The position numbers were made by a program, and so were the translations under genes. Shown here piece after piece: positions 402 to 21,106 of a stretch of DNA of 21,467 bases. Under the pieces are notes generated by a model. The model had not been told where the DNA came from, searched no databases, and was given only the letters and a program-made list of their open reading frames with translations. This stretch comes from a virus: positions 1-21,467 of the IMG/VR virus record IMGVR_UViG_3300010368_000142, one strand, 5' to 3'. The number at the start of each line of letters is the position of its first letter. Position 1 is the stretch's first letter.

Positions 402-839
402 ATGAAAAATACGGAAATATCTTACATAAACGAAAATCACAGAAGTATTGTTGAATTACATCTAAGAAAGATTAAGAAAGAAATGTATTTTGCTACTGAA
501 GATGTTGGAGAGGGCAAGTATCAAGACTTTTTAGATATAATGAACTCAGTTTATTTATATTCTAACAATTTTTACGACACTATGGTGGAAAAGAGGGGTG
601 ATGGTGGTTTGTTGGATGAGTTTATGTTTTTAATACCAAACATGGTGTTTTATACTGCTATTGGGTATTTAACTGCATTGAAAGATGGACATAATGATGA
701 TTTAATGAGAAGTAGTTTAGAAGAAATAGGTTACATTTGCGAAAACGCAACAAGTGAACTTGCAGATATATTGATAGATGAAAAAGAGAGTGTAAAAATA
801 ATGCAAGATATTTTAGATTTAGAATTGACTAAAAATTAA
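402..839 (+). CDS. Hypothetical protein, first gene of the tail module
   Basis: This is a 145-residue, acidic, probably mostly helical protein with no family I recognise. It has no signal peptide. A moderately hydrophobic stretch around residues 76-92 could be a buried helix. The ATG at 402 is the first start after the promoter-like element at 355-362 and is preceded by A/T-rich sequence with no Shine-Dalgarno motif. The stop at 837-839 lies six bases before the tail chaperone gene, so the two are very likely co-transcribed. Its place between terminase and tail chaperone suggests a virion or assembly role, but nothing in the sequence proves this. Confidence 0.7.
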   Translation: MKNTEISYINENHRSIVELHLRKIKKEMYFATEDVGEGKYQDFLDIMNSVYLYSNNFYDTMVEKRGDGGLLDEFMFLIPNMVFYTAIGYLTALKDGHNDDLMRSSLEEIGYICENATSELADILIDEKESVKIMQDILDLELTKN

Positions 840-845
840 TATATA

Positions 846-1526
846 ATGGTAGAAATTAAAATTCAAGACAAAAGTTATGATATTCCAACTGAATGGAAAG
901 ACATAACACTTAGATATTGGTGTGGACTATACTCAATAATAAATCAGTATAATAAAAGAGATAATGAGGGTAATGTTATTGAGGCAGAACACTCAGAAGT
1001 GGAGTTATTGAAGATGAATAGAGATATTTTCATATATCTTACAGGTATTAGTCATAATGAGATGAATATGCTAGATGTTGATAGTGTAAATGCTGCAGTA
1101 GCGACATTCTCACAAACATTGGAAGAATATAAGCCAAAAGGAATAGATAAATTTGAATTTGAGGGTGAGGAATATCTATTTCCAAAAGAATTTCTAAGAA
1201 GAAACACATTTGGAGATTATATTGAATCAACTCACTTAGAGAGTACAATAGAAATAATGAAACATGGAAGGTTTGATGTATTACCTGAACAAATGGCAAT
1301 ACTTTGCAGAAGGGTTGATGAGGAATATGATGATGATGCAATACCTGCCAAAACTGAAAAGTTTAAAGAATTGACAATGGATTTCGTTTGGGAATTCAGT
1401 TTTTTTTTGACAATGCAAAGCGTAAAATTAACAAGGACTTTCCAAATGTTTTTGGGGAAAACAGAGGAAGAGGTGGAAGCGGCAAAAATAGAGTTTCTAC
1501 AGTTGGACTCTATAACAAGTTCATAA
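846..1526 (+). CDS. Tail assembly chaperone-like protein, short (zero-frame, gpG-like) product
   Basis: The 226-residue product resembles a Bacteroidota phage family in which a variable N-terminal half is followed by a conserved region; here that is roughly residues 135-205 (fDVLPEQMAILCRR, EEYDDD, then TMDFVWEFSFFLT). The zero frame runs through a run of nine T at 1400-1408 and continues for about 40 codons while the -1 frame is also open to 1726. That layout matches the G/GT tail assembly chaperones of siphoviruses, where the short form is the major product and helps load tail tube subunits around the tape measure. The tape measure gene lies 7.5 kb downstream instead of directly next to it. 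The family assignment rests mainly on the overlap architecture and position. Confidence 0.62.
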   Translation: MVEIKIQDKSYDIPTEWKDITLRYWCGLYSIINQYNKRDNEGNVIEAEHSEVELLKMNRDIFIYLTGISHNEMNMLDVDSVNAAVATFSQTLEEYKPKGIDKFEFEGEEYLFPKEFLRRNTFGDYIESTHLESTIEIMKHGRFDVLPEQMAILCRRVDEEYDDDAIPAKTEKFKELTMDFVWEFSFFLTMQSVKLTRTFQMFLGKTEEEVEAAKIEFLQLDSITSS

Positions 1527-1726
1527 AGCCTTATGGTTGGCTTAATAGTTTATATATGGTTGCAGAAAAAGGGATATTTAGAGTGAATGGTGAAAACGAC
1601 ATAGATAGTGTAAAGAAAACAGACTTATACAAGGTTTTAACTTATTTAAGTTGGAATACTGCTAAAAATGACTATGAAATTGCTGTTCAGGAGAAAATAC
1701 ATAATAAAAATAATATAACATTGTAA
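846..1726 (+). CDS. Tail assembly chaperone, predicted -1 frameshift (gpGT-like) product
   Basis: Reading 846-1406 and then slipping back one base to continue 1406-1726 gives a 293-residue fusion. The extension begins FDNAKRKINKDF and includes YGWLNSLYMVAEKG and LYKVLTYLSWNTAKNDYE, which looks like a folded helical domain. This frame has no ATG near its 5' end; the only upstream start is a TTG at 1388, and the first ATG is at about 1556, inside the conserved part. Translation by slippage from the upstream frame is therefore the simplest explanation. In lambda-like phages the T part of GT binds the tape measure. The alternative is a single continuous gene whose T-run was read one base short; the well-formed protein in the zero frame beyond the run argues against this. 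Confidence 0.55.
1400..1409 (+). promoter_or_regulatory. Predicted -1 ribosomal frameshift site (T9 slippery run)
   Basis: Nine consecutive T occupy 1400-1408. In the upstream frame the codons are AGT TTT TTT TTG, which contains the canonical X_XXY_YYZ forms T_TTT_TTT (1400-1406) and T_TTT_TTG (1403-1409). Slipping back one base joins the 846 frame to the frame ending at 1726. A weak hairpin (CCAAA at 1442-1446 with TTTGG at 1451-1455) lies more than 30 bases downstream, too far to be a classical stimulator. Confidence 0.55.
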
Positions 1727-1728
1727 TA

Positions 1729-2883
1729 ATGGCAATAACAAGATTAACGGACATAATAACAGTATTTGACAGCAAATGGACTTATGGTGATGTGAAATTT
1801 GGTTACGAGGGTGAAGTAAACCAAGATCATGACACTAAGTACCCATTAATGCTAGTTGAACCACCATCATCAATAATACCAAAAATATATGATGGTAGAG
1901 AGGAATATGAGTTTGAGGTAAATTTTTACAATTTATACCCTCAAGCAGCACAATCAGTAGTTACACTTCAAAAGAGATGGGATAATTTACAGGACTTGGC
2001 TAACGAATGGTTAGATATGGTTTTGAAGTATTATCAAGATTCTGTTTTTACAACTAATGTGGAAGCATATCTAAATGATGAGAGTATTGAAATTGAGAGA
2101 GTAAAAGAAGTAGCAAACGATAGGTTAGTTCAAATAAAACTAACATTTACTATGAGTGGGTTTACTAAGTGTTTCCGACCTGTATCTAACTACCCATCAG
2201 ATTATTCTGATTTAAAAGTATGGTTAAAATCAGATAGTGGTGCTACATTTGATATAGCATCTAAAAGAGTGAGTGCTTGGGCTGACCAATCAGGAAACAG
2301 TAATGATGTGGCTCAATCAACAGCAGCAAATCAACCACTAAGATATGGATATGGTGGAATTAATGATAAATCATATTTTGATTTTGATGGTACTAATGAT
2401 GTTTTTGTTTCAAATAACAACTCTCCAATAACAACAGACTTTACAATATTTGAGGTAAGTAGAATTGATGGGGCAAATGAATATTTATTTGGTTTTGCAG
2501 ATGGTTTAGGGGGTTTAATAGGCATAGGTACAGATTCTAGTGGTTATATTACTGCTACAGTAAGTGAGCCATTTAATACAATAACTGCAAATACTTCTGT
2601 AGATAATAAAGGGAGTAATCATATATCAATATTAAAGAAACATAACAAAAGAATAGATTTAGAATATTATGATTCTGCAAATTCTATAACTGCTACTGAT
2701 AATGATTCTGGATTTAATGCTAGTTATGCTTACAACAGTAAAACATTTAGTATTGGCTCTTTCAGAGTCTTTCCTAAAATGTCTGGACAATTAAACGAAT
2801 TAATAATTTTTAACAGAGCCTTGACTGATATTGAAATTGCTAATGTTAGAGGTTATTTAAATACAAAATATAAAATATATTAA
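1729..2883 (+). CDS. Tail protein with C-terminal LamG/concanavalin A-like module
   Basis: The 384 residues fall into two parts. Residues 1-155 form an alpha/beta domain (FEVNFYNLY, KRWDNLQDLANEWL) of a kind seen in small Bacteroidota phage tail proteins, which I cannot name exactly. Residues 161-384 look like a LamG/concanavalin A-like beta-sandwich: LKVWLKSDSG, VSAWADQSGN, FDFDGTND, and the closing GQLNELIIFNRALTD. Such folds often bind glycans. The C-terminal part clearly resembles the separate protein at 18492-19184. The ATG overlaps nothing and starts two bases after the chaperone extension stops. The layout suggests a core tail component that displays a receptor-binding module; the glycan-binding role is inferred. 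Confidence 0.68.
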   Translation: MAITRLTDIITVFDSKWTYGDVKFGYEGEVNQDHDTKYPLMLVEPPSSIIPKIYDGREEYEFEVNFYNLYPQAAQSVVTLQKRWDNLQDLANEWLDMVLKYYQDSVFTTNVEAYLNDESIEIERVKEVANDRLVQIKLTFTMSGFTKCFRPVSNYPSDYSDLKVWLKSDSGATFDIASKRVSAWADQSGNSNDVAQSTAANQPLRYGYGGINDKSYFDFDGTNDVFVSNNNSPITTDFTIFEVSRIDGANEYLFGFADGLGGLIGIGTDSSGYITATVSEPFNTITANTSVDNKGSNHISILKKHNKRIDLEYYDSANSITATDNDSGFNASYAYNSKTFSIGSFRVFPKMSGQLNELIIFNRALTDIEIANVRGYLNTKYKIY

Positions 2884-9008: not shown

Positions 9009-11486
9009 ATGGCAAATACAGAGAAAATTGTAGTTCAGGTAGTAGTACAAGGTGAGAAGGATTTACAAAAGGTAGGCAAAACAGCAGACAAATCAACTAG
9101 AAGTTTTGGGAAGATGGCTGCAGGGATTGTTTCTGCAGGTGCTGCTTTTAATGCTATAAACAAAGCAATAGGTAGTGCAATAACAACATTTAAGAATTTT
9201 GAATTTTCTATGGCTAAAGTAAAGGCAATTACTGGTGCTTCTGAAAAGGATTTTAAAAAATTAACAAATACAGCACAACAATTAGGTCGTTCAACATTCT
9301 TTACAGCATCTCAAGTTTCAGAATTACAAGTTGCTTATGGTAAGTTGGGATTTACAACAACTGAAATATTGGATGCACAAGAGGCTACTCTTATGTTGGC
9401 GACAGCAACACAATCAGATTTGGCTAGGGCTGCTGTTGTGGCAGGTGCTGCAGTTAGAGGTTTTGCTTTAGATGCTAGTGAAACTCAAAGAGTTGTTGAT
9501 GTTATGGCTGTATCATTTACAAGTTCTGCATTAGATATTGAAAAATTCCAAACATCTATGACTAAGGTTGCACCTATTGCATCAGCAGCAGGTATTAGTA
9601 TAGAAACTACAACAGCAATTATGGGTACGCTTACTGATGCAGGTATTGAAGCATCTATTGCAGGTACATCATTAAGAAATATATTCTTAAAAATGCAAGA
9701 CCCAGCATCAGATTTAACTAAAAAATTAGGATTTACAGTTAATAGTAGTGCAGATTTAGAAAGGGCTTTAACTAAATTAAATGATGAAGGGCTTTCTAAT
9801 GCTGAAATGATGGAACTTGTAGATATAAGACAGGTTGCTGCTTTTACAACAATGATTAATGGTACTGACAATGTATTAGACCTTACTGATGCTCTTGAGG
9901 ATGCTAATGGGAAAGCACAGGAAATGGCTGATATTATGGCTGACACTTTAGAAGGAGATATACTAAAGGCTAAGTCTGCTTGGGAAGGGTTAGAGATTTC
10001 TATACTAACAGGTGGAAACAATATATCAAGGTCTTTAAGGTCTGTTGTTAGTGATTGGACAGAGTTTATTAGCACTATAGTTGATAATATGAGAACTCCT
10101 GAACAATTAGGTGCAGACTTCTTGACAGATGCCTTAAATAGGATTAAAGACACGCAAAAAGAAATAAATGATTTGCAAAAATCTGGAGAATCAGTTGAAA
10201 CTAAAAATAGAGTAGAGTTATTACAAGAAGAATCAGAAAAATTAGAGAGGGTACAAGCACTTCAGAAACAGGCATTAGAATTTGCTACAAAAGAAGGTGA
10301 AGGTTTTGGTTTTAGAGCAAAAGCAGCAAGGGATTATGCAGAGGATTTAACAAAACAGATTGAGGCAAGAGAATTTGCTTTAAATGATTTGGAAGAAATT
10401 ATTGATTTAGAGGTAAAAAAAGAAAAAAATAAAAATGATAGAGTTCAGTTAGATAAAGATATTGCAATAGAAAAAGCAAAAAGGGCTAAGGAAAAAGAAA
10501 ATAAAGAAAAACTAAAAGAAAAAGAAAAAGAAGAAAAAGAAGAATTAGCATTAGAGAAAAAAGAATTTCAAGACAAGAAACAACAATTAGATACATTTTT
10601 AACAGAAACTCTTAACAAAGAAAAACAAAGACTTATTGATGGTCAAATTACTCAAGAAGAATATAATTTATTAGAGTTTGAGGCAGAACAGGCTCATTTA
10701 GCAAATATGTTAGGGTTAAATAACGCATACGCAATAGATAATGCTGATATTAATTCTAAACTACTAGACAATGAGTTAAGGATGATTTCTGAGAAGGCTG
10801 CTGCTGAGGTTAAGGCTGCTAAAGATAAAGAAGATGCAAGGAAAAAAGAAATAGATGGTGTTGCTCAATTAGGCGACCAACTTATAAACTTAGCAGGAGA
10901 AGATGAAAAGATGCAAGGTATTAGAAAAGCAGGTATTCAGTTATCTGCTGCTGCTGCAATAGCAAATAATATTGAATCACTTTCACTTGCTGCTAAGGGT
11001 GTTGCAAAACAATCAACTTTATTATTTCCTGCCAACTTAATAGCAATGGCTGGTACAATAGGTACTGTTGTATCATTATTTGCTAATATTAAAGCAATGA
11101 AAGATTCTTTTGGAGATGGTGGTATTGTAGAAACTTTTGCAAATGGTGGTATGGTACATGGTAAATCACACGCACAGGGTGGTGAGAAGTTTGCAGTAGG
11201 TGGTAGAGTGGTTGAGTTAGAAGGTGGTGAGGCTGTTATAAATAAAAGAAGTACGGCAATGTTTGGCAGACAATTATCAGCAATGAACGCTGCAGGAGGT
11301 GGTGTTAAGTTTGCAGATGGTGGATTACTTAATCAACCTTCATTCAGTCAACAACAATTCAATGCAATAGGTCAGAATCAAATGATGGGTGCAATGGGAA
11401 GTTCTGGTAAGGTAGTGGTGGTTGAGGCAGACATTACTGACAGCCAAAACTCAGTAAGTGTAATACAATCTGAGGCAACAATTTAA
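9009..11486 (+). CDS. Tail tape measure protein (TP901 type)
   Basis: At 825 residues this is the tail length ruler. Residues about 62-290 match the TP901/PhageMin_Tail domain (FEFSMAKVKAITGAS, LGRSTFFTASQVSELQ, GISIETTTAIMGTL, AGTSLRNIFLKM). A long Lys/Glu-rich coiled-coil follows at about residues 375-620, then a hydrophobic helical stretch around 640-700 that may insert in the membrane during DNA ejection. The C-terminus has short Gly-rich repeats (GGIVETFANGGMV, KFAVGGRVVELEGGE, VKFADGGLL) and ends VVVEADITDSQNSVSVIQ, as in many flavobacterial phage tape measures. The ATG lies one base after the previous stop (TAATATGG). No peptidoglycan hydrolase motif was found in it. Confidence 0.9.
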   Translation: MANTEKIVVQVVVQGEKDLQKVGKTADKSTRSFGKMAAGIVSAGAAFNAINKAIGSAITTFKNFEFSMAKVKAITGASEKDFKKLTNTAQQLGRSTFFTASQVSELQVAYGKLGFTTTEILDAQEATLMLATATQSDLARAAVVAGAAVRGFALDASETQRVVDVMAVSFTSSALDIEKFQTSMTKVAPIASAAGISIETTTAIMGTLTDAGIEASIAGTSLRNIFLKMQDPASDLTKKLGFTVNSSADLERALTKLNDEGLSNAEMMELVDIRQVAAFTTMINGTDNVLDLTDALEDANGKAQEMADIMADTLEGDILKAKSAWEGLEISILTGGNNISRSLRSVVSDWTEFISTIVDNMRTPEQLGADFLTDALNRIKDTQKEINDLQKSGESVETKNRVELLQEESEKLERVQALQKQALEFATKEGEGFGFRAKAARDYAEDLTKQIEAREFALNDLEEIIDLEVKKEKNKNDRVQLDKDIAIEKAKRAKEKENKEKLKEKEKEEKEELALEKKEFQDKKQQLDTFLTETLNKEKQRLIDGQITQEEYNLLEFEAEQAHLANMLGLNNAYAIDNADINSKLLDNELRMISEKAAAEVKAAKDKEDARKKEIDGVAQLGDQLINLAGEDEKMQGIRKAGIQLSAAAAIANNIESLSLAAKGVAKQSTLLFPANLIAMAGTIGTVVSLFANIKAMKDSFGDGGIVETFANGGMVHGKSHAQGGEKFAVGGRVVELEGGEAVINKRSTAMFGRQLSAMNAAGGGVKFADGGLLNQPSFSQQQFNAIGQNQMMGAMGSSGKVVVVEADITDSQNSVSVIQSEATI

Positions 11487-11505: not shown

Positions 11506-11700
11506 ATGTTTGTTGATAAAAAAACCAAGTTAGAGAGATTAGATATATGTAAAAGTTGTAGTTTTTACCGAAACTTTATGTTACTAAAGAAACCAAAGAT
11601 AGCAAGAGGTGCGAGGTGTGCTGAATGTAAGTGTTTCCTAGATGCGAAAACATCACTAACAAAAGAGTTTTTTGGTAAATGTCCTAAAAATAAATGGTAA
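11506..11700 (+). CDS. Small zinc-ribbon-like protein after the tape measure
   Basis: This 64-residue basic protein has paired cysteines C15-x2-C18 and C38-x2-C41, with more at C43 and C59, the layout of a zinc ribbon or small treble-clef-like fold. The core pattern (LDICKSC, then GARCAECKCFLDAKT, and a final CPKNKW) is one I recognise from small conserved proteins lying directly behind tape measure genes in Bacteroidota phages, but I know of no assigned function. It starts 19 bases after the tape measure stop and is followed ten bases later by another small Cys-containing gene. A role in tail assembly or nucleic acid binding is possible. Confidence 0.72.
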   Translation: MFVDKKTKLERLDICKSCSFYRNFMLLKKPKIARGARCAECKCFLDAKTSLTKEFFGKCPKNKW

Positions 11701-11710
11701 AACTTTACAT

Positions 11711-12004
11711 ATGAATTTTAAAGAAATCGCTGAAAATTACAGTAAGAAAAAAAGAAGTATGATGACAGATGCTGTTATCACTAACATGAATTATACTAAA
11801 AATTTCACTACCCATCACTCTGAATCACTTAATATAATGTTTGCAGAATGGCACTTATTATTCCCTCAAAACAAACAAGATATTAATTGTACCTCTTGTA
11901 GAGCAGCAGTTTGTAAGTTTTGGAATACTATGATGGATGAGTGGATTGAAGCCGAACAAACACCTAAAAAGAAAAATGCCTCAAAAAAAAGAAAGACAAA
12001 ATAA
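11711..12004 (+). CDS. Hypothetical small Cys/His-containing protein
   Basis: The 97-residue protein is helical and charged. Cysteines 60, 63 and 68 in NCTSCRAAVCKFW, together with His 35, 36 and 48, could bind a metal, and the C-terminus is Lys-rich. I chose the ATG at 11711 because it follows the preceding stop by ten bases; the upstream ATG at 11672 in the same frame would overlap the zinc-ribbon gene by 29 bases and add only a short, weakly structured leader. Its end overlaps the next gene by 29 bases. I do not recognise the family. Its neighbours suggest a small regulatory or assembly protein. Confidence 0.6.
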   Translation: MNFKEIAENYSKKKRSMMTDAVITNMNYTKNFTTHHSESLNIMFAEWHLLFPQNKQDINCTSCRAAVCKFWNTMMDEWIEAEQTPKKKNASKKRKTK

Positions 12005-12308
12005 GGTAGATGTAGTTAAAGACTTCATTGATATTTGTGGAGTTGAATTAGAAAAGCGATTTGGTCAATCACCAACTTGCAGGGACATGATACGACATCT
12101 TGTTGAGAAAGGCATAATAGAACCCAAGAGAGTAAGAAACTATATGATTATTGCTGACTTTGATAGAATGTTAGTAGGCAATAAAGGTAGCAGAACTTAC
12201 ACTTGGATGGACTTATCTATTAAATATAGTATAAGCGAAAGTCAAGCACAGAATATAGTTTACAAGGAAAGAAAGAAGGCAATTACATCTAATAATATCA
12301 CATACTAA
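11976..12308 (+). CDS. Small protein with C-terminal helix-turn-helix (regulator or small terminase candidate)
   Basis: The 110-residue basic protein carries a likely helix-turn-helix at about residues 75-102 (YTWMDLSIKYSISESQAQNIVYKER), close in pattern to the C-terminal motifs of Mor-like activators and sigma region 4-like folds. An N-terminal helical region (VDVVKDFIDI, SPTCRDMIRHLVEKGII) could dimerise. The ATG at 11976 (MPQKKERQ) is preferred over 11937, which would overlap the previous gene by 68 bases. It ends 43 bases before the -7 element of the protease promoter, so it could regulate that promoter. A small terminase subunit is an alternative, since none is seen elsewhere in the window. 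Confidence 0.62.
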   Translation: MPQKKERQNKVDVVKDFIDICGVELEKRFGQSPTCRDMIRHLVEKGIIEPKRVRNYMIIADFDRMLVGNKGSRTYTWMDLSIKYSISESQAQNIVYKERKKAITSNNITY

Positions 12309-18491: not shown

Positions 18492-19184
18492 ATGTTAAGT
18501 TTAAAACAAAGTTTAAGTTTAAATACTAGAAAAACTGTAGGGGGTTCTTGGAATCCAAATGTTGAGGGTAGCGTTGTTGCTTGGTATCAAAAAGGAGAAG
18601 GAATTACTTTAAATGGGTCTGATGTTTCTGCTTGGGCAGATAGTGCCACAGATGTTCCATATAACATGGCTCAATCAACTGCATCTGAGCAACCTGCTTA
18701 TTCAGCAGGGGCATTAACATTTGTAAGTGCTGATAGTACCAATCTTCAAACAACTTCTCAAATAACTTTAACAGGTGCTTTTACAATAGGTGTTAAATTA
18801 ACACCAACAGGAAGTAATACAGGTACTTTCTTAGCAGATATAACTACAAATAATGAGTTTTTTAAACTTACCTCTACTACAAATTTTAGAGCAAAAATTG
18901 ATGGTAATCTGGCTAGTATTAATTTAGATAGTGGCACATTTGGAGATGATTATTTAGTTATAACTAGAGATGGTTCTAATCTACTTACTTTGAATAAAAA
19001 TGGAGTAGCACAAAGCACAACAACAACTACAGCAGGTACAGCAGATATTGATGCTATTGGTTTAAGAAGTGGCTCAGGTTCAGGAGTAAATGGTTTTGAT
19101 GGAGTTATAGAGGAAATACAAATTTTTAGCAGTACAAGTGCTGCGTTAACTGCTAATGTAAATGCTTATTTAGCAGGATTATAA
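18492..19184 (+). CDS. LamG/concanavalin A-like surface protein
   Basis: The 230-residue protein is almost entirely one LamG-like beta-sandwich (residues about 25-230): VVAWYQKGEGITLNGSDVSAWADS, FTIGVKLTPTGS, DDYLVITRDGSNLLTLNKNG, and the closing GVIEEIQIFSSTSAALT. The short N-terminal segment (MLSLKQSLSLNTRKTVGGS) may attach it to the virion. It corresponds clearly to residues 161-384 of the tail protein at 1729-2883, including the shared SAWAD and AQSTAxxQP motifs, and 13 bases (TGGCTCAATCAAC) are identical in the matching place. Such modules commonly bind polysaccharides, so this is a candidate receptor-binding or surface-binding protein; that role is inferred. Confidence 0.65.
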   Translation: MLSLKQSLSLNTRKTVGGSWNPNVEGSVVAWYQKGEGITLNGSDVSAWADSATDVPYNMAQSTASEQPAYSAGALTFVSADSTNLQTTSQITLTGAFTIGVKLTPTGSNTGTFLADITTNNEFFKLTSTTNFRAKIDGNLASINLDSGTFGDDYLVITRDGSNLLTLNKNGVAQSTTTTTAGTADIDAIGLRSGSGSGVNGFDGVIEEIQIFSSTSAALTANVNAYLAGL

Positions 19185-21040: not shown

Positions 21041-21074
21041 CAAGAGTGGGGTGTTCAAAAACATCTCACTTTTG
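21041..21074 (+). terminator. Strong hairpin, probable rho-independent terminator of the late operon
   Basis: The arms 21041-21055 and 21060-21074 (CAAGAGTGGGGTGTT and AACATCTCACTTTTG) can pair over 15 positions with three G-U pairs, around a four-base loop CAAA. The 3' arm ends in TTTTG and is followed by ATTTATAT, so it is moderately U-rich. It lies about 60 bases after the last lysis gene, where late transcription would be expected to end. A run of nine T follows at 21088-21096. Confidence 0.55.
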
Positions 21075-21106
21075 ATTTATATAAGCATTTTTTTTTGTAT
21101 AATTGC
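21071..21106 (+). promoter_or_regulatory. Possible promoter of the gene at 21129 (P4)
   Basis: TTTG at 21071-21074 and TATAATTG at 21098-21105 (one mismatch to TAnnTTTG) are separated by 23 bases, the same spacing as the promoter after the holin gene. A transcript would start about 20 bases before the ATG at 21129. The nine-T run lies within the spacer. Confidence 0.4.

Follow-up and report, generated by a model that had tools for sequence, protein, structure and literature searches.

A predicted two-product gene at a run of nine Ts

The window (the whole stretch of DNA analyzed here, 21,467 nucleotides of the IMG/VR record IMGVR_UViG_3300010368_000142) contains a gene whose reading frame starts at position 846 and is crossed, near its 3′ end, by nine consecutive Ts (1400-1408, followed by G1409; Table 1). 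In the frame of this gene the codons across the run are AGT TTT TTT TTG ACA, and the two slippery heptamers that an earlier note on this DNA had pointed out, T_TTT_TTT (1400-1406) and T_TTT_TTG (1403-1409), are both in phase with it; T_TTT_TTT is an in-phase heptamer of the X_XXY_YYZ kind by which ribosomal -1 frameshift sites are recognized. The zero frame stops at 1526 and gives 226 aa; the open stretch of the -1 frame extends over 1367-1726, and a slip at the run would give a fusion of 293 aa ending at 1726, so that the computed translations agree with the product sizes in that note. The +1 frame meets a stop immediately 3′ of the run. The stretch 3′ of the run that is read in two frames (1409-1526) measures 118 nt, where about 120 had been estimated, and the -1 frame indeed has no ATG near its start: the earliest is at 1556, within the conserved domain, and the only start-like codon near the beginning of the frame is a TTG at 1388, which lies 5′ of the run. 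A slip site near the 3′ end of an ORF, with an overlapping shifted ORF that has no start of its own, is the layout of G/GT-type genes.

Table 1. Features of the window around the T run and of the neighboring late genes.
Feature	Position	Strand	Evidence
145-aa ORF directly upstream of G; in relatives between the terminase large subunit and G	402..839	+	ORF
G-like gene, short product of 226 aa, zero frame	846..1526	+	ORF; relatives to 47% identity; hhalign to second lineage; AlphaFold2 mean pLDDT 75
Candidate upstream stem-loop, 8 bp UGGAUUUC / GGAAUUCA, loop GUUUG, 1 nt 5′ of the T run	1378..1398	+	Folding z; GC3 excess
Putative T9 slip run, codons AGT TTT TTT TTG	1400..1408	+	T9/T10 in 203/203 de-duplicated homologous sites
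T-like domain, -1 frame, 108 codons, predicted access by slippage only, open from 1367	1400..1726	+	hhalign 96.9% to lineage B T-domain, E=1.6e-10
Dual-coded overlap	1409..1526	+	Per-site diversity drop in both frames
Virion structural gene, 384 aa, LamG-like C-terminal part by eye	1729..2883	+	PHROG 10356 E=1.1e-16
Tape measure protein, 7.3 kb downstream	9009..11486	+	PHROG 1533 E=3.8e-60; Pfam PF10145 E=4.8e-31

Relatives in two lineages

We scanned IMG/VR for the 226-aa product and recovered 56 loci (lineage A, the window's relatives), 53 of them with a full or nearly full gene at 62-98% identity; profile searches extended these relatives to 47% identity. At all loci of the scan that cover the site, T9 has the same phase, the zero frame stops 218-236 codons after its start, and the -1 frame ends just 5′ of the next gene. 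One relative (L130, 6522-7722) differs from the others examined, in that its -1 frame has no stop and continues into the next structural gene (400 codons). Among the 132 unique lineage A sites, 127 have T9 and five have T10, with the additional T at the 5′ side (in a GTT or CTT codon) and the same relation between the frames; both Phe codons are TTT in all 132.

Foldseek matches of the modeled short product (AlphaFold2; Table 1) were uncharacterized viral proteins, including one of Nonlabens phage P12024S. In this phage P12024S_38, picked out by its length of 175 aa, also carries T9, and its -1 frame is annotated separately as P12024S_39: the two hypothetical proteins (JQ823122.1, 23136-23830) correspond to the G frame and the T frame, which meet at T9. 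Nonlabens phage P12024L has the same G/T pair. Scanning with the P12024S G protein gave 63 loci at 25-99% identity (lineage B), with T9 or T10 wherever the site is covered; in a scan with the lineage B T-domain profile, the best 80 loci of at least 600 stretches contained 73 unique sites, all T9. The G proteins of the two lineages are linked by profile-profile comparison (hhalign; 95.8% probability, E=8e-9), and so are their T domains (96.9%, E=1.6e-10). The same arrangement is present in cellular contigs listed as Flavobacterium, Winogradskyella, Galbibacter pacificus, and Dysgonomonas (a part of them from metagenome bins); these contigs and the IMG/VR relatives of the Dysgonomonas copies, with GC contents up to 46%, have T9, and T10 once. 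A genome-collection scan with the G alignment found no matches; with the T-domain alignment, matches were found. Judged from these sequence comparisons, the T9 arrangement recurs in phages and prophages of Bacteroidota that fall into two homologous lineages (marine, freshwater, and from Dysgonomonas), and the relatives together with the frame architecture support the earlier assignment of the window to a Bacteroidota phage with a G/GT layout.

Another Foldseek match, Flavobacterium phage 6H, was set aside: no T9 site is seen in it, and either it shifts frame in some other way or the similarity is spurious. In its genome (KC959568.1, minus strand, 10040-10930) an unannotated gap of ∼305 nt follows a 191-aa gene and contains an open frame. 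The zero frame there ends in CFFYSTR and a stop near T_TTT_TTC, and the -1 frame stops at once, so any frame change at this place must be of another kind.

Length, register, and rarity of the run

Across 203 de-duplicated homologous sites we counted 196 with T9 and seven with T10; none has T7 or T8. These counts are not independent because the sequences are related, and the fairer figure comes from clustering the upstream proteins at 90, 70, and 50% identity (105, 50, and 19 clusters, respectively), all of which have nine or ten Ts. The final tally covers FF-containing sites and those relatives that the profiles recovered, so it could overlook a distant branch that uses a different site. The register of the run varies between the lineages while its length holds at nine: it is 1+3+3+2 (NNT TTT TTT TTR) in lineage A and the Dysgonomonas group, and 2+3+3+1 (NTT TTT TTT TAY/TGG) in most of lineage B. 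The third frame has its stop 0 codons after FF in lineage A and two codons after it in nearly all of lineage B. An in-phase T_TTT_TTT is found at all 203 sites except one TTC-containing variant, but every T9 run includes this heptamer; no other X_XXY_YYZ heptamer takes its place among the relatives recovered. In lineage B the second Phe codon could be TTC instead of TTT without any effect on the protein of either frame; all 42 unique genes have TTT, and two other conserved Phe columns of the same lineage have 45-56% TTC.

For 17 of these phages (195 ORFs, 174 kb of coding sequence) we compared the numbers of long runs to expectations obtained by synonymous permutation. Runs of nine or more As were observed once, against 14 expected, and runs of nine or more Ts 17 times, all at the slip site, against about 4.5 expected. 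With these figures and T9 or T10 at all 203 sites, coincidence is a very poor account of the run. Long A or T runs are thus depleted outside the slip site, which indicates that they are selected against except at this site; avoidance of mutational or ribosomal slippage could contribute to the depletion. The sole A9 run is in one relative (L046), in a 137-aa ORF that resembles the window's ORF at 402-839. The longest A run of the window itself is an A8 at 11983-11990, in the overlap of the ORFs at 11672-12004 and 11937-12308, which may be an ordinary overlap or a slip site. A hairpin-like stretch (GAGTGGGGTGTT..AACATCTCACTT, 21043-21096) follows the last complete gene of the window, and 3′ of it there are a second T9 run and a TATAAT-like stretch, then a new ORF; these are probably a terminator and a promoter.

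RNA structure around the run

Downstream stimulators are common in programmed -1 ribosomal frameshifting and are not required for it. Folding of the sequence downstream of the run gave z of about 0 against shuffles in lineages A and B, with no stem-loop or pseudoknot stimulator. The earlier statement that there is no evident stimulatory structure nearby therefore holds downstream of the run and has to be amended upstream, where a moderately supported candidate stem-loop is located (1378-1385 paired with 1391-1398). In lineage A the stem positions end 1-2 nt 5′ of the run, and the third bases of codons -6, -5, -2, and -1 are G or C at frequencies of 0.62, 0.76, 0.93, and 0.98 (expected 0.21, 0.09, 0.31, and 0.14), whereas the loop codon -4 does not depart from background (0.12 vs. 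0.12). Compared to codon-usage-matched synonymous variants, the upstream region of lineage A folds with z=-2.18 (control windows are near zero), and with z=-0.83 once GC is matched. No covariation or compensatory changes above shuffles were seen in the hairpin, in which few positions are free to vary under the constraint of coding for protein; it was not flagged at the thresholds of the terminator scan, and the folding analysis found no upstream stem-loop signal in lineage B. We consider the hairpin plausible in lineage A. From the known footprints, a hairpin so near the slip site would be inside the ribosome during a ribosomal slip, yet it would form immediately behind the RNA-DNA hybrid when a polymerase holds U9. 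A Shine-Dalgarno-like stimulator (GGGAG, 5 nt before the heptamer) was also considered and set aside: it fits the GAG preference, not those for TTC, ATC, and GAC. Bacteroidota make little use of Shine-Dalgarno-like pairing.

Polymerase or ribosome as the agent of the slip

Frameshifting in tail chaperones is textbook ribosomal recoding, and to our knowledge a ribosomal frameshift is assumed to be universal for tail chaperone genes. The earlier note, too, had described a programmed -1 frameshift on slippery heptamers at this site; we retain the access to the -1 frame at the T run and rate the ribosome below the polymerase as the agent, since the length of the run is kept whatever its register. 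Conservation of a run of nine As or Ts across homologs very likely marks purposeful transcriptional slippage (PMC1088944), and an A or T run of about nine whose length is conserved in homologs is what we found at the 203 sites, together with the avoidance of such runs in the other coding sequence of the same genomes. Slippage of bacterial RNA polymerase needs at least seven Ts, favors poly(T), and gives insertion more than deletion; Shigella mxiE slips on T9 (PMC6260861).

The sequence evidence leads us to favor RNA-polymerase slippage slightly over ribosomal -1 frameshifting, because what is conserved is a length of at least nine, not a register, and this length exceeds the seven Ts that a -1 heptamer needs. 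That the locus is a G/GT-type tail-assembly-chaperone gene decoded at T9 by a polymerase that adds one extra U is, in our judgment, an evenly balanced proposition. Under polymerase slippage, the bulk of expression would go to the 226-aa G product, and a minority to the 293-aa GT fusion via a -1 frame change at the nine-T run; RNA polymerase would add one U while its RNA-DNA hybrid of ∼9 bp is all rU:dA, a hairpin forming just behind the run would help it to slip in the window's lineage, and ribosomes would translate the U10 transcripts into T with no change of frame. Further points on the side of the polymerase are the lack of a downstream stimulator, the stem-loop bias just 5′ of the run in lineage A, and the stop of the third frame at or soon after FF.

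Classical programmed -1 ribosomal frameshifting of the same gene into the same products, by a tandem tRNA-Phe slip on T_TTT_TTT (or T_TTT_TTG) without a stimulator, is a strong contender, and we place it somewhat below an even chance. All phage tail chaperones with studied decoding provide a precedent for it, some of them free of stimulators (PMC5009743), and T_TTT_TTT is in the right phase at every site but the TTC-containing variant, although any T9 run guarantees that phase. Ribosomal slippage too may rise with run length (10% on A7, 40% on A9, and 63% on A11; PMC3711429), UUU may be a better A-site codon for it than UUC, and the flanking Ts appear to be partly a by-product of the conserved residues around FF, with [SAG]FFL leading to 1+3+3+2 and [VLI]FF[YW] to 2+3+3+1 when the heptamer is already in place. 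The hairpin that would assist a polymerase also loses strength after GC matching, shows no covariation, and is missing in lineage B. Seven Ts, however, would be enough for a ribosomal slip, yet none of the 203 sites has seven or eight; the register shifts and the length does not; the silent change of T to C at the A-site codon occurs in 0 of 42 unique lineage B genes; and the relatives recovered offer no alternative heptamer. Polymerase slippage and ribosomal frameshifting may also act together.

Identity and neighborhood of the gene

The two-product gene is likely a tail assembly chaperone. Neither G nor T matches a curated family, so this function is deduced from layout and synteny, which are the parts of the earlier chaperone assignment that stand; searches of Pfam, PHROG, and PDB gave no significant match of G or T to a curated family, solved structure, or annotated chaperone. 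The BFVD matches of G are uncharacterized phage proteins, the sole structural match to a named chaperone is at rank 50 (E=1.1, not significant), and the AlphaFold2 model of the T domain (pLDDT 54) is too poor for structure search. Tail assembly chaperones are a very divergent class. G and T are upstream of the tail genes, in the same direction, and adjoin the terminase; a chaperone is typically just before the tape measure gene (this is not strictly defining), which starts here at 9009, as far away as the more than 7 kb previously noted. In a 34-kb relative the order is a small ORF in the position of the terminase small subunit (without a family match), the terminase large subunit, a small ORF, G, T, and the structural gene; in P12024S the terminase, G, and T are followed by a weak tape-measure match ∼6.4 kb on. 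The structural gene of the window (1729-2883) and the ORF at 18492-19184 have similar LamG/concanavalin-like C-terminal parts, by eye.

The gene could be a real two-product gene with some other late function near the terminase, which would suit its place beside the terminase and 7.3 kb from the tape measure gene as well as its lack of matches to curated families, solved structures, or, at significance, named chaperones. We regard this as unlikely, given the two-frame G/GT layout, the late-operon position upstream of the tail genes, the product sizes, and the dependence of a small conserved domain on the frame shift; we know of no other class of phage genes with such a layout. If the gene is a chaperone, lambda would be the model for its products: G would be expected to cover the tape measure protein, and the T portion to bring in subunits of the tail tube.

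Dual coding of the overlap

In 36 gap-free sequences, third-position diversity in the zero frame falls from 0.354 upstream of the site to 0.120 in the overlap, and that in the -1 frame is 0.320 downstream and 0.056 in the overlap. Both frames of the overlap are thus under protein-level selection; a misread T10 or a pseudogene is excluded because both are constrained. The comparison of both frames in related phages that the earlier note had proposed as a check thus found them conserved and jointly constrained, and the outcomes it had named as fatal (ten Ts in a single continuous gene, or unconserved frames) are excluded by the relatives and the dual coding.

The -1 frame might still be a separate gene, expressed by an internal start or re-initiation without slippage, as in the GenBank annotation of P12024S_39, which starts at an ATG; the window offers the TTG at 1388 and the late ATG at 1556. 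This is very improbable: in both frames conservation sets in at the run itself, well ahead of the first ATG, and the invariant T9 would be left without a purpose. That the true sequence has T10 through an assembly error, or that the gene is broken, with a single continuous 293-aa ORF, draws on the fact that homopolymers are error-prone in some sequencing methods, and we reject it as next to impossible, given T9 in more than 100 contigs assembled independently of one another and also in two isolate genomes, those of Nonlabens phages P12024S and P12024L, a zero frame that is itself conserved past the run, and T10 relatives that also keep the two frames out of register.

Implications

A search of non-subscription literature on the recoding of tail chaperones, whether in phages of Bacteroidota or through transcriptional slippage, found no description of T9-dependent decoding of this family; absence there is not proof. 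We would give just under an even chance to the general statement that tailed phages and prophages of Bacteroidota decode this tail chaperone by programmed polymerase slippage on an invariant T9, hairpin-assisted in one lineage, and not ribosomally. If true, evolution would be keeping a fixed-length homopolymer rather than a heptamer in a widespread family, and the ratio of the two products could be set at transcription. For hundreds of Bacteroidota phages, an annotation rule would be a T9 run on an FF motif, followed by a -1 frame containing GW; in these phages the T domain is currently overlooked or treated as a hypothetical gene of its own.

Comparison with known systems

The G/GT genes of lambda have equivalents in P2 (E/E+E′) and HK97. 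As in lambda, two products would arise from one start, with -1 access to a downstream frame that has no start of its own, the long product would carry a T domain C-terminal to G, and the gene would belong with the tail genes (PMC5009743). Unlike lambda-type genes, which have varied heptamers, the family described here has an invariant T9; its gene follows the terminase, 7.3 kb before the tape measure gene, and has no detectable match in sequence or solved structure.

The mxiE gene of Shigella flexneri is similar in that nine Ts join two overlapping ORFs by a one-nucleotide insertion in the transcript, with the same run and the same direction (PMC1088944, PMC6260861). The protein and the host are unrelated, and slippage is experimental in mxiE and predicted here. 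Stem-loop-stimulated transcriptional slippage was reportedly described by Penno in 2015 for an IS element of Roseiflexus, where a hairpin, resembling that of an intrinsic terminator, is said to be immediately behind the slippage run, as the candidate hairpin of lineage A would be; that run is heteropolymeric and the slip a deletion, in contrast to a homopolymeric T9 and a predicted insertion here, where the hairpin is moderately supported and lineage-specific.

The closest known counterparts are Nonlabens phages P12024S and P12024L, which have homologous G and T genes (38 and 39 in P12024S), T9 at the junction, and the same position adjoining the terminase. They differ from the window in that the two frames are annotated as two unrelated hypothetical proteins, and in the register of the run, which is off by one codon position.
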